A stretch of 64,000 nucleotides of DNA, taken from positions 372,001 to 436,000 of the forward strand of contig JAOAPC010000008.1 in the NCBI GenBank assembly GCA_025462735.1, in the 5' to 3' direction. The position numbers were made by a program, and so were the translations under genes. Of this stretch, positions 20,421 to 43,731 are shown piece after piece. This stretch comes from Acidobacteriaceae bacterium. GTDB taxonomy: Bacteria > Acidobacteriota > Terriglobia > Terriglobales > Acidobacteriaceae. Below the pieces are notes generated by a model, which saw nothing but the letters and a program-made list of their open reading frames with translations, ran no database searches and was not told the origin of the DNA. Positions within the stretch are counted from its first letter, which is position 1; each line of letters begins with the position of its first letter.

Positions 20421-20488
20421 TATGCTCCTCTGGCCAATATGCTTCTCTGGCCAATATGCTTCTCTGGCCAATATGCTTCTCTGGCCAA
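20421..20488. repeat. 17-bp tandem repeat, four copies, in 5' leader
   Basis: Four consecutive 17-bp units start at 20421, 20438, 20455 and 20472, with consensus TATGCTTCTCTGGCCAA; only the first differs (CTCCTC for CTTCTC). Read on the minus strand, each unit holds GGCCAGAGAAG or GGCCAGAGGAG. The gene-proximal unit gives the likely Shine-Dalgarno of the gene at 19868-20419. Confidence 0.95.
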
Positions 20489-26922: not shown

Positions 26923-26942
26923 GACGGGCGTCCTCGCCCGTC
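26923..26942. repeat. REP-like palindrome, GACGGGCG family
   Basis: A perfect 8-bp stem, GACGGGCG (26923-26930) and CGCCCGTC (26935-26942), with loop TCCT, in the gap between thyX and the convergent MCE gene. It could act as a weak terminator, but there is no T-tract. Confidence 0.85.
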
Positions 26943-34039: not shown

Positions 34040-35530
34040 CTATGGTGCGATTTGGGCAAGTATCTGTCTCAAGACCTCGTCCTGAGCGGGAAAAACGGTG
34101 CGCAGATCGAGCAGAATCCGGCCTTCTTCCACGCGAGCGATCACTGGCGGGTTGAAGGTACGCAGGCGAGTGGCAAGCTCATTCGCGCTCAGGCTGGTCC
34201 GCGTGAGCGCGATCAAAGTCGTCGGCAGAACTGCCGAAGGAGCCGAGCCGCCGCCGATCAGGGATTCGCCGTCTATGAGATCGGCAACTATTTTTGCAGA
34301 ATTAATTTGTGAAATTAATGTTTCAGCACGCTTTGTAATTTCGGATTTCGAAAGCTGCATCATTCTTAGCGCCGGGACGCCATTGTGATCACGCTTAATG
34401 TAGGCCAGCAACGTGGCTTCCAGTGCCGCGTACGTGAGCTTATCGACGCGGAACGCCCGGAACAGCGAGTTGCTACGCATTTTTTGGACCAGGTCTTCAC
34501 GCCCGCTGATCAGGCCAGCTTGCGGACCTCCCAGCAGCTTGTCGCCACTGTAGGTCACGACGTGGACACCGCAGCGCACGCTATCGAGAACGCTGGGTTC
34601 GCTGTTTATCCCAATTGTGCGGAGATCGAACAACGCCCCGCTGCCTAAATCTTCCATAAGGGGCAGCTTGTGTTTTGCAGCGAGTGCCACTAGTTCGCTG
34701 AGATCGGGCTGTTCGGTGAATCCGGTGATCTCAAAATTCGAACGATGGACGCGCAGCAGCAGCTTGGTTCGTTCATTGACGGCGCGTTCGTAATCCGCGA
34801 TTCGCGTGCGATTTGTGGTGCCGACTTCATGCAGAGTAGCGCCGGACTTCGCCATCACATCGGGAATGCGGAATGAGCCGCCGATTTCAACTAGCTCTCC
34901 ACGCGAGACGATGACCTCGCCGCCCTCGGCGAGCGTATTCAATGCCAGCAACACGGCGGCGGCGTTGTTGTTGACGACAATGGTGGAGACAAGAGGAAGA
35001 CGGGCGGGGACGCCCGTCGCTCCAGTTTCCTCAGAGCGTGTGGGGGCGCGCACCCCTGCCCGTCCGGTCGACCCCGTGCCGACACTCTCCTGAGAGAGCA
35101 GCTTGCGAAACAGTCGATCCACGTGAACATCCCGCTTACCGCGTTCGCCGGAATCAAGATTGAATTCGAGGTTTGAGTAGGCTTCCGCGGTTTCGCGAAT
35201 GTGGTCCATCGCGGATGCCGCGAGCGGTGCGCGTCCCAGATTGGTGTGCAGAATTACTCCGGTTGCATTGATCACCGGCAGCAACGAATAGCCGAGTGCC
35301 CGACCTAGTTCGTTTCGGATCGCGTCGTGAATGCCAGCGATCGCAATCCGCAGCTTGTCTGAGTCAAGATGGCCCGCGGCAATCTCATCTCGCAAACGCG
35401 CGAGCACGGCCCGGCATGCATCGGTCGTCGCGGCTTGCCCCTCGTGAGCTATCAGGGCAGCGACTTCGGGCTCGCGGAGAAGTTCATCAATCCCCGGCAG
35501 CTCCGGGTATAGGTCGGCGTGAGCTTTCAT
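34040..35530 (-). CDS. selA: L-seryl-tRNA(Sec) selenium transferase with in-frame repeat insertion
   Basis: A 496-residue PLP enzyme that converts seryl-tRNA(Sec) to selenocysteyl-tRNA(Sec). Markers are PVINATGVILHTNLGRAPL, VVNNNAAAVLL, SRGELVEIGGSFRIPDV and the PLP lysine K331 in YSGDKLLGG (K295 in E. coli). Residues about 147-180, between LLSQE and STIVVNNNAA, are extra. They are encoded by REP-like palindromes on the plus strand (34999-35018 and 35042-35056), which accounts for the shifted lysine. The frame is intact. selB and tRNA-Sec are not in the window, and no selenoprotein was recognised. Confidence 0.94.
   Translation of the reverse strand: MKAHADLYPELPGIDELLREPEVAALIAHEGQAATTDACRAVLARLRDEIAAGHLDSDKLRIAIAGIHDAIRNELGRALGYSLLPVINATGVILHTNLGRAPLAASAMDHIRETAEAYSNLEFNLDSGERGKRDVHVDRLFRKLLSQESVGTGSTGRAGVRAPTRSEETGATGVPARLPLVSTIVVNNNAAAVLLALNTLAEGGEVIVSRGELVEIGGSFRIPDVMAKSGATLHEVGTTNRTRIADYERAVNERTKLLLRVHRSNFEITGFTEQPDLSELVALAAKHKLPLMEDLGSGALFDLRTIGINSEPSVLDSVRCGVHVVTYSGDKLLGGPQAGLISGREDLVQKMRSNSLFRAFRVDKLTYAALEATLLAYIKRDHNGVPALRMMQLSKSEITKRAETLISQINSAKIVADLIDGESLIGGGSAPSAVLPTTLIALTRTSLSANELATRLRTFNPPVIARVEEGRILLDLRTVFPAQDEVLRQILAQIAP
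34999..35018. repeat. REP-like palindrome inside selA
   Basis: A perfect 8-bp stem, GACGGGCG (34999-35006) and CGCCCGTC (35011-35018), with loop GGGA. It is followed by the GCTCCA flank seen in other copies. A second GC-rich imperfect palindrome (GGGGCGCGCACCCC) sits at about 35042-35056. Together they encode part of the extra segment in SelA. Confidence 0.9.
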
Positions 35531-35581
35531 GAGGAACGATTATCCACGTACAGCGGAGCACATCGCAAGCAGGGGATGCAA

Positions 35582-35597
35582 TCCCACGGGCGTGGGA
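35582..35597. repeat. Palindrome between selA and recG
   Basis: The stem TCCCAC (35582-35587) and GTGGGA (35592-35597) with loop GGGC lies in the 104-bp gap between recG and selA. It is an outlying variant, not the core family. Confidence 0.5.
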
Positions 35598-35634
35598 CCG
35601 TTCGACTTCGCTCAGGGCAGGCTGCGTCACCCGT

Positions 35635-37842
35635 CTAACCTACCTCCACCAGTCCGTATGTCTTCTGCCAGCGTGTGCGCATCTGCCAGAGCGCACGATC
35701 TATTTCGGTCTGCGAAATTTCTGAATTCGGTCCGGAAATAACTGCGGCTGCTTCTTTCCTTGCGAGCTCTAGCAGATCTCGATCGCGGATCAAGTTTGCA
35801 ACCTGAAAGCTGGGCATGCCTGCCTGTCGTGTTCCGAAAAATTCTCCAGGACCGCGCATTTCGAGATCCAGCTCGGCAATTTGGAAACCGTCCGTCGTAC
35901 GCACCATCGCATCCAGCCGGCGCTCCGCTTCCTCTGAGACTTTGCCGCTGGTCATCAGAATGCAGTAGGACTTCGCAGCGCCGCGCCCGATCCGGCCACG
36001 CAACTGATGCAGCTGCGCCAGGCCGAAACGTTCGGCATGTTCAATGACCATAACAGCTGCGTTTGGAACATCGACTCCGACTTCGATCACCGTTGTCGCA
36101 ACCAGGATCTGGATTTTGCCCTGCTGGAAAAGACGCATGACCTGCTCTTTCAAATCGGGGTCCATCCGCCCGTGCAAGACTGCGACATTCAGATTCGGAA
36201 ATATCTTCTTGCTCAGCTCGCCGTACATCTTCATGGCGGCCTTGAGCTCGGTCTCTTCGTTTTCTCCGATGACTGGGTAGACAACGTAAGCCTGATGTCC
36301 AGCCGTGACCTGCTTGCGCACAAACTGCCATACTTCATCTGCACGTTCGTCGCCGACGCGGCGGGTCACAATTGGAGTGCGCCCGGGAGGCATCTCATCC
36401 AGAACGCTAATGTCGAGGTCACCGTAGAGTGTTAGAGCAAGAGTGCGGGGGATGGGAGTCGCGGTCATGACCAGGACATCGGGCTCGGCTGTACCATTGT
36501 CCATCTGGGGACGGGCGCCCTCGCCCGTCCGGCCGAGCGAAGCTCGACGACTCGTCGCATCGCCTACCTCTCCGCTTTTCTTCATGAGCTTGAAGCGCTG
36601 CAGGACTCCGAAGCGGTGCTGCTCATCGACGATCACCAAGCCCAGCTTTTCGAATTCAACTTTTTGTTCGATCAGCGCATGAGTGCCGATCACCAGTTGT
36701 GCACTTCCCTGAGCAATGTGGCGGCGGATTTCACGCTTGCGATCTTGTTCGAGTGAGCCGGTGAGGAGAACGATTCGATACCCCGAGGGCTCGAGAATCT
36801 GGCGGGCGGAAAAGTAGTGCTGCTGCGCCAGAATTTCGGTCGGAGCCATGAGCGCAACCTGATATCCGTTTTCAATGGCGATGATGGCGGCTTCGAAGGC
36901 CACCAGCGTCTTGCCCGAGCCCACATCGCCTTGCAACAGACGGCGCATGGGATAAGGCTTTTCCATGTCCGCGGCAATTTCTTTGAGGGTCCGCTTTTGC
37001 GCTCCGGTGGGATGAAACGGCAGAATTTTCTTGATCGCCTCCCGCACGCGGTCGTTCAGCTCGAATTCGATTCCTGTTTGGGCCTTTTGCTCACGACGCT
37101 TCAGTTCGAGGCCCAGCTCAATAAAGAAAAGCTCCTCGAAGATAAGGCGGATGTGAGCTGGGGTCCGCGAGCCCTGCAGGTGGTGAAAACTTTCTCCCGC
37201 CTCCGGCCAATGAACTTTCCAGAGTGCCTCGCGCGGCGGCAACAAGTCGAGACGCTGGCGGACGGCGGCCGGAATGGATTCCGGCAACTCTGGCGTAAGG
37301 TTTTCGAGCGCGGTTCTTATAGTCCGGCGAAACCACTTCGACGTTAGCCGCCCCTGGCCTGCCGACTCATAAATCGGAACAATCCGCCCGATTTCTAACG
37401 ACTCAGCGGCCTTTTGCTCGGCTGCTTCACCCTCGGCCTCGCCCAGAAATTCGAATTGTGGCTGCACCAGTTGCAGTTCGCCGCGACTTTCTTCCACGCG
37501 CCCATAAAGTGCTAACATTTGGCCGGGCTGGAACTTATCTTTCAGGTAGGCAGCATTGAACCAGATACATTTCAGCCGGGCGCGCCCTTGGCCGGCGGTC
37601 ATTTGGAAGATCGGCATGCGCCGGGTGCGGAACAGGCCGGAGGTACGGACCTCGGCAATGACCGTCGCCATTTCTCCCGCGCGCAGTTCGGCTATGCCCC
37701 GAGGATTCAGACGATCTTCATAGCGAAACGGCAGATAATGAAGCAGATCATCAGCGGTGGCGATGCCTTTGGTGGCCAGAATTTCCGCAATACGAGGGCC
37801 AATTCCTTTCACGTATTGAACAGGAGTGGAGGGTTCTAGCAT
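35635..37842 (-). CDS. recG: ATP-dependent DNA helicase RecG with in-frame repeat insertion
   Basis: A 735-residue helicase that reverses stalled replication forks. The N-terminal wedge OB domain (LNPRGIAELRAGEMATVIAEV) is followed by the helicase core. Motifs are GDVGSGKT, DEQHRFG and TATPIPRTL, then the C-terminal lobe with VATTVIEVGVDVPNA and QLRGRIGRG. Between QRFKLMKKSG and DVLVMTATP about 28 residues (near 426-453) are extra and include TGEGARP, encoded by a REP-like palindrome at 36509-36530. The insertion lies in a loop between motifs II and III. ATG 37842 is preferred over TTG 37860. Confidence 0.95.
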   Translation of the reverse strand: MLEPSTPVQYVKGIGPRIAEILATKGIATADDLLHYLPFRYEDRLNPRGIAELRAGEMATVIAEVRTSGLFRTRRMPIFQMTAGQGRARLKCIWFNAAYLKDKFQPGQMLALYGRVEESRGELQLVQPQFEFLGEAEGEAAEQKAAESLEIGRIVPIYESAGQGRLTSKWFRRTIRTALENLTPELPESIPAAVRQRLDLLPPREALWKVHWPEAGESFHHLQGSRTPAHIRLIFEELFFIELGLELKRREQKAQTGIEFELNDRVREAIKKILPFHPTGAQKRTLKEIAADMEKPYPMRRLLQGDVGSGKTLVAFEAAIIAIENGYQVALMAPTEILAQQHYFSARQILEPSGYRIVLLTGSLEQDRKREIRRHIAQGSAQLVIGTHALIEQKVEFEKLGLVIVDEQHRFGVLQRFKLMKKSGEVGDATSRRASLGRTGEGARPQMDNGTAEPDVLVMTATPIPRTLALTLYGDLDISVLDEMPPGRTPIVTRRVGDERADEVWQFVRKQVTAGHQAYVVYPVIGENEETELKAAMKMYGELSKKIFPNLNVAVLHGRMDPDLKEQVMRLFQQGKIQILVATTVIEVGVDVPNAAVMVIEHAERFGLAQLHQLRGRIGRGAAKSYCILMTSGKVSEEAERRLDAMVRTTDGFQIAELDLEMRGPGEFFGTRQAGMPSFQVANLIRDRDLLELARKEAAAVISGPNSEISQTEIDRALWQMRTRWQKTYGLVEVG
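36509..36530. repeat. REP-like palindrome inside recG
   Basis: A perfect 9-bp stem, GGACGGGCG (36509-36517) and CGCCCGTCC (36522-36530), with loop CCCT. A further small palindrome CGAGC/GCTCG follows at 36534-36546. Both lie within the recG coding sequence without breaking the frame. Confidence 0.92.
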
Positions 37843-37905
37843 CTGAAGGGATGGTAACAAAAGCGGCAGGCAGCACTCGGATGAGGGCTGTTTACAGGTC
37901 CTGCG

Positions 37906-43668: not shown

Positions 43669-43731
43669 GACGGGCGAGACGCCCGTCACTCCACAACACT
43701 GCTGTTGGAGAGACGGGCGTCCCCGCCCGTC
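43669..43731. repeat. Paired REP-like palindromes (BIME-like) in sigma/anti-sigma spacer
   Basis: Unit 1 is GACGGGCG (43669-43676) and CGCCCGTC (43680-43687). Unit 2 is GACGGGCG (43712-43719) and CGCCCGTC (43724-43731). The linker between them (43688-43711) can itself form an imperfect hairpin (CTCCA to TGGAG). The paired layout matches the copy at 63222-63290. Confidence 0.92.

Follow-up and report, generated by a model that had tools for sequence, protein, structure and literature searches.

The stretch of Acidobacteriaceae DNA analysed here (positions 372,001-436,000 of JAOAPC010000008.1; 64,000 nt, hereafter the window) raises the question of how perfect palindromes of one repeat family came to lie inside two core genes, selA and recG, with neither reading frame broken. 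The genome of the window is labelled G000, and its relatives carry other G numbers. The palindromes are elements of the repetitive extragenic palindromic (REP) type and its paired form (REPIN). It is very probable that such hairpins, most likely moved by Y1 transposases of the REP-associated tyrosine transposase (RAYT) class, have been tolerated in frame within loops of core proteins.

Two oriented forms of the element are distinguished: type 1, (G)TGGAGN-GACGGGCG-TCCT-CGCCCGTC, and type 2, GTGTGGG-GACGGGCG-CCCT-CGCCCGTC-CGGCCGAGC...GCTCG. The gene for L-seryl-tRNA(Sec) selenium transferase, selA, occupies 34040-35530 of the minus strand (Pfam SelA, 441.7 bits; PDB match 3w1h) and contains a perfect type 1 palindrome at 34999-35018 (plus strand; GACGGGCG-GGGA-CGCCCGTC), whose tag CTGGAGC lies on the minus strand. 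The ATP-dependent DNA helicase gene recG follows at 35635-37860, also on the minus strand (Pfam RecG_wedge, DEAD, Helicase_C and RecG_dom3_C; PDB match 1gm5), and holds a perfect 22-nt type 2 palindrome with loop CCCT at 36509-36530 (plus strand). The initial annotation had placed palindromes at exactly these positions, with both frames intact and extra residues in both proteins; this reading of the sequence is correct, and the evidence is now stronger than first put.

Both palindromes fall in segments of about 28-32 residues that have no counterpart in the solved structures. In SelA the segment comprises residues 150-181 (34988-35083, minus strand) and is unmatched when compared with the structure of Aquifex SelA; in RecG it comprises residues 430-460 (36481-36573, minus strand), between the DEQHRFG and TATPIPR stretches, where Thermotoga RecG has 3 residues. 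The insert of selA is composite, consisting of the perfect palindrome and an older, decayed type 2 copy (approximately 35037-35067, minus strand) that is read in another codon phase as GRAGVRAPTR. The insert of recG is a single type 2 copy in reverse orientation, completed by the second small hairpin of this type, CGAGC-GAA-GCTCG, at 36531-36548 (plus strand).

The decorated SelA is probably functional, judging from its partners and its predicted fold. G000 contains selB (374.7 bits) and, at 69.9 bits, tRNA-Sec, so the selenocysteine pathway appears complete; a second tRNA-Sec match, which just exceeds the cut-off of 47 with 47.1, may represent a different tRNA. In a SelA model built from 35 sequences (mean predicted local distance difference test score, pLDDT, 88), the sole segment of at least 3 residues below 50 is 150-174, within the insert; averages of 59 and 63 were obtained for two further blocks of ten residues. 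Lysine K331 of the SGDKLLGG motif, which we take to be the pyridoxal phosphate lysine of SelA, was found where the initial annotation had put it and does not vary in alignments of 11 and of 35 sequences. The copies in SelA and RecG would be read through as flexible residues of presumably exposed loops, in proteins that are presumably produced and working.

The repeat family is abundant in this genome. The 4.36 Mb of G000, in 24 contigs, contain 51 perfect copies, and the reversed control pattern gives 0. Copies were counted by a mismatch scan with the reversed control, and 50 of the 51 palindromes were fetched; in the fetched DNA, copies exceed controls by 50 to 0 when perfect, 6 to 0 at one mismatch and 19 to 2 at two, and matches at three (21 against 10) or four mismatches (55 against 35) were not trusted. 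An nhmmer profile added few copies beyond the exact pattern. The window itself has 7 family matches at up to two mismatches, against 0.07 expected from shuffled sequence, including an intergenic member found by the scan at 26923-26942 (plus strand). A tag in the wide sense (GT[AG]G, TGGAG or TGGGG; about 4% per random 9-mer) accompanies 41 of the 50 fetched copies on one side, 3 on both and 6 on neither; for strict GT[AG]G within 9 nt of the hairpin the numbers are 24, 1 and 25. Neighbours less than 150 nt apart involve 27 of 75 elements (up to two mismatches; orientation not scored). Some pairs read directly are head-to-head, as in REPINs and bacterial interspersed mosaic elements (BIMEs); in the window, one such REPIN-like pair consists of a member at a gene edge (43669-43687, plus strand) and an intergenic one (43712-43731, plus strand).

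Of 200 genomes from the order, 34 contain one or more perfect copies (11 of them at least 10) and 166 contain none; the control never exceeds one per genome. Perfect copies number 51 in G000, 12 in G001, 15 in G002, 24 in G003, 26 in G004, 13 in G016, 4 in G013, 1 in G017 and 0 in G006 and G021. A search of viral contigs with the tagged pattern gave no match.

Most copies lie outside genes, and the intergenic members that the initial annotation had mentioned make up 34 of the 50 fetched; 2 more are at gene edges and 14 are internal, in 13 genes. The fetched DNA consists of about 730 kb taken whole and of shorter stretches picked around palindromes, and the whole part alone contains 12 perfect copies, 3 of them internal. 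Genes were called by our own codon-usage script, which overlooks frames that run off the far end of a short stretch; a stricter gene-score cut-off leaves 13 internal copies rather than 14. Compared with a coding share of 79% (gene calls on the 730 kb), 14 internal copies of 50 represent a roughly tenfold depletion (odds ratio 0.10).

In addition to selA and recG, the host genes that exceed NCBIfam cut-offs are mtaB, the gene for a 2-oxoacid dehydrogenase E2 subunit, mutS2, lpxB, ligA, lipB (with two copies), ispE and carB. Two hosts fall short of those cut-offs, a dapA-like gene with a match to Pfam DHDPS and a peptidase gene with one to Peptidase_S9; the remaining host is a Peptidase_M56 gene (C15) in which the copy lies beyond the matched domain. 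Tags and flanks of the intragenic copies are the same as those of intergenic ones. Location within genes is not unique to this family, because in the same 967 kb, genes also contain 10 of the 70 copies of 14 further repeat patterns. Repeats of other families (GTCGGACA and GGCACG stems) were seen in the same genes as GACGGGCG elements in mutS2 (G000 C12:625399) and ispE (C14:112767).

The codon phase shared by the two palindromes, ACG-GGC, had also been pointed out. The observation stands, and the phase (phase 2) recurs in 12 of the 14 internal perfect copies (P 8e-5 if phases were equal); as a signal of its own it fails. A product of codon frequencies from G000 genes predicts phase 2 in 59-91% of cases, depending on the loop; the phase is thus the one expected if codons and residues (TGVLAR, TGEDAR) have to be acceptable. 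Phase 0 is used by the mtaB copy and phase 1 by the dapA-like copy, and weak, chance-level matches inside genes are mostly in phase 2 too. The phase bias was therefore rejected as the mark of a special mechanism.

Comparison with relatives shows that the loops differ in content from species to species. Searches for SelA and RecG covered 40 relatives and led to alignments of 29 loci for each protein; ten further genes were compared in nine relatives, with G005 and G007 left out for low completeness. Aligned genomes from other families (10 for SelA, 9 for RecG) lack these segments, much of the same family has them in short form, and congeners have different inserts in the same SelA and RecG loops. 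Empty sites were found for ligA in G002, G004, G013, G017 and G021, for lpxB in G006, G013, G017 and G021, and for carB in G002, G006 and G017. The same extra residues in relatives lacking the repeats would speak against insertion; instead, the REP-poor G006, G017 and G021 have mostly short loops, and the REP-richer congeners have filled ones. The SelA loop of G006, with 36 residues and no clear repeat, is an exception. The best named SelA matches are metagenome-assembled genomes of Acidobacteria, Terriglobia and Candidatus Sulfotelmatobacter, from which the window would be assigned to Terriglobia.

Since the loops were picked from the window genome, only relatives count in their hairpin density, which is 5.7 hairpins per kb for all relatives pooled, compared with 1.2 elsewhere in these genes. 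By group it is 7.9 in G001-G004, 4.4 in G013 and G016, and 2.9 in G006, G017 and G021; the draft assembly of G004 has a broken recG, whose entry was manually set to na. Within the same 12 genes, which make up about 0.5% of a genome, lie 3 of the 12 perfect copies of G001 (recG, ligA and mutS2; P 3e-5) and 5 of the 26 of G004 (selA, mutS2 twice, ispE and lipB; P 2e-7), although these counts were made after the lists had been seen and shared descent can explain part of them. In G002, all 15 copies lie outside the matched stretches of these genes, as do the 10 places listed out of 24 in G003. In lpxB of G004 (L202), the loop insert resembles a REP with another repeat, CCTTCGACAAGCTCAGGGCAGG, nested inside.

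These comparisons bear on whether each loop received a single ancestral insertion that later diverged, with no repeated hits; conversion with other REPs might then have homogenised the inserts. The type 2 copy of selA is alike in G000, G002, G003 and G004, and the GATG.LARP copy of mutS2 is alike in G000, G001 and G004, as single ancestry would predict. However, the recG loop of G001, a sister species with 87% identity over 12 genes, has two forward elements where the window genome has one reverse element; ligA is empty in G002 and filled in its sister G003 (support 0.968); and carB and lpxB hold REP types in G001 that differ from those of G000. Single ancestry throughout is therefore rather unlikely, while retaining some weight. 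As the selA type 2 and mutS2 copies appear common to several species, these loops probably reflect both inheritance and fresh insertion. We lean towards the stronger proposal that REPs driven by RAYTs enter the same core-protein loops again and again, independently in sister species, which would make these loops a standing, transposase-fed source of new protein sequence.

The proposed mechanism begins with non-autonomous hairpins, which RAYT-class Y1 transposases would most likely mobilise. The copies are strongly depleted in genes, and those in frame, free of stops and in a loop would be tolerated; the same permissive loops have probably been loaded more than once across related species. G000 contains 12 Y1_Tnp (PF01797) matches. 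The RAYT-class gene at C23:64944-65471 has at its end a tagged hairpin pair of the type 2 layout seen in recG. The comparison set consisted of 12 REP-rich genomes, with 8-89 copies, and 12 REP-free ones selected by hand; matches to the C23 protein above 100 bits occur in 11 of the former and 2 of the latter (Fisher P 0.0006, at a line set after the result had been seen). Hairpins occur near the transposase gene at each of 12 RAYT loci that were read, and their stems vary between genomes. In G156 the RAYT gene (C19:956-1399) is bracketed by exact GTGTAGC-GACGGGCG hairpins at 852-871, 1443-1462, 1540-1559 and 1630-1649, a REPtron with the same stem as the family in the window. The same REP flanking a Y1 gene, as expected of a cognate transposase, was thus found in G156; G000 shows related stems only.

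Several points weigh against this explanation. In G000, no perfect GACGGGCG copy was found bordering any Y1 or RAYT gene; the hairpins at the C23 gene share the layout and have the stems CCCGGACG and GGGCGGGT, and the exact copy nearest the C17 gene is about 230-280 bp downstream. At E 1e-10, all 12 REP-rich and 6 of the 12 REP-free genomes have matches to the C23 class. G093 has 15 copies and no close RAYT, and a stop lies inside the best RAYT hits of G180, G183 and G112. The hairpin scan flags one hairpin in two of the sites called empty (lpxB of G013 and carB of G006). The peptidase copy at C14:4667 (L117; gene C14:3326-5758) brings no net gain in length over several relatives, and plain insertion therefore does not explain it; it is as if residues had been replaced. 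The RecG model (mean pLDDT 43, 5 sequences) was unusable.

The RAYT gene on C17, first suggested as the cognate by nearby copies, was rejected because the hairpins closest to it belong to another family. Around this gene (L123; G000 C17:38000-46000), palindromic repeats of many families are densely intermixed, and every family has a distinct stem. At C23 (L087/L298), the stop codon of the RAYT gene is supplied by the TAG of the adjoining tagged repeat.

In comparison with insertion by transposition and tolerance in loops, the remaining explanations fare worse. The hairpins might be retained for a role, for example by acting on mRNA or altering the activity of repair proteins, as is speculated in PMC3733652. 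The presence of recG, mutS2 and ligA among the 13 host genes and the filling of several loops in several species could be read in this way; the host genes are otherwise unrelated, however, sister inserts differ, and insert-free relatives keep the genes, which makes such a role improbable. Still less credible are ordinary loop expansions whose palindromes would be chance products of GC-rich coding DNA, formed in situ. The long SelA loops of G006 and G013, without a clear repeat, would fit this origin, but the excess over the reversed control up to two mismatches, the tags and flanks common to intragenic and intergenic copies and the hairpin density of the homologous loops in relatives argue against it, and for perfect copies it is already refuted. 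An assembly or binning artefact is hardly conceivable even for a draft genome, given the open frames, the selA-recG adjacency kept in G001-G004 and the inserts at the same places in separately assembled genomes.

The original paper on Rickettsia palindromic elements (RPEs) is reportedly that of Ogata et al. in 2000. Tolerance of mobile-type repeats in loops of conserved proteins, as proposed in the initial annotation, is borne out by the present data; its description of the phenomenon as little known is not, because in-frame insertion of palindromes was reported earlier for Rickettsia (PMC2229807, PMC3767692) and for REPs in O. terrae and others (PMC3733652). In-frame RPEs occur in 19 Rickettsia reading frames, and a guanylate kinase bearing one is active with changed substrate affinity (PMC2229807). 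Like the family of G000, RPEs are palindromic repeats that keep the reading frame of numerous unrelated genes and often occupy matching sites in orthologues. RPEs, however, are 105-146 bp long (PMC2229807) and belong to obligate intracellular hosts of the Rickettsiales, whereas the family in G000 has a core of 20-22 nt and resides in a genome of 4.4 Mb that contains RAYT-class genes. The elements described here thus differ from the RPE class in length and host, and share its mode, in-frame location in conserved genes with empty sites in relatives. For RPE-4, RPE-6 and RPE-7, insertion hotspots were weighed against one diverged insertion, and a single origin was favoured with hotspots not excluded (PMC3767692); repeated re-loading, if true, would settle that question for the present group.

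The closest likeness is to GTAG-tagged REPs, which are short tagged palindromes, RAYT-associated, mostly intergenic and in some cases in frame within genes (PMC3733652). GTAG and CGTC REPs were reported there within genes of several species and phyla, with 20-30 residues coded by dimers; many of the intragenic copies are in DNA repair genes, a DNA ligase is also a host, and those of Xanthomonas recB are at about the same site. Phyla and stems are different here, and the tag in G000 is often GTGGAG, a few bases off the stem. To this the present case adds empty sites, a co-occurring RAYT class and copies in opposite orientation in a sister species. REPINs and BIMEs with their tnpA_REP genes (PMC3116915, PMC6006769) resemble the G000 family in their inverted REP pairs and REPtron layout. 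In-frame REPs are also known within subclass 2.4 tnpA_REP genes (PMC6006769), that is, in the transposase genes themselves, whereas those of G000 are in core genes.

For Acidobacteriota, the literature reports Y1 transposase (TIRYT) genes and one family of repeats from Koribacter (PMC3733652), as well as class 3 transposases (PMC6006769); intragenic REPs of this phylum were not found in the material searched, and further papers may exist. The current work adds an acidobacterial case in which relatives show empty sites and a transposase class is linked to the repeat, along with evidence for more than one loading of the same loops. Matching empty and filled sites within one genus, together with a candidate transposase, extend in-frame palindrome insertion to this phylum. 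Both the recurrence of insertions at the same loops and the transfer of REPs into genes by RAYTs become testable, and the loops provide a natural map of positions at which core enzymes tolerate about 30 extra residues.

Another repeat of the window, at 20421-20488, consists of head-to-tail copies of the 17-bp unit TATGCTTCTCTGGCCAA.

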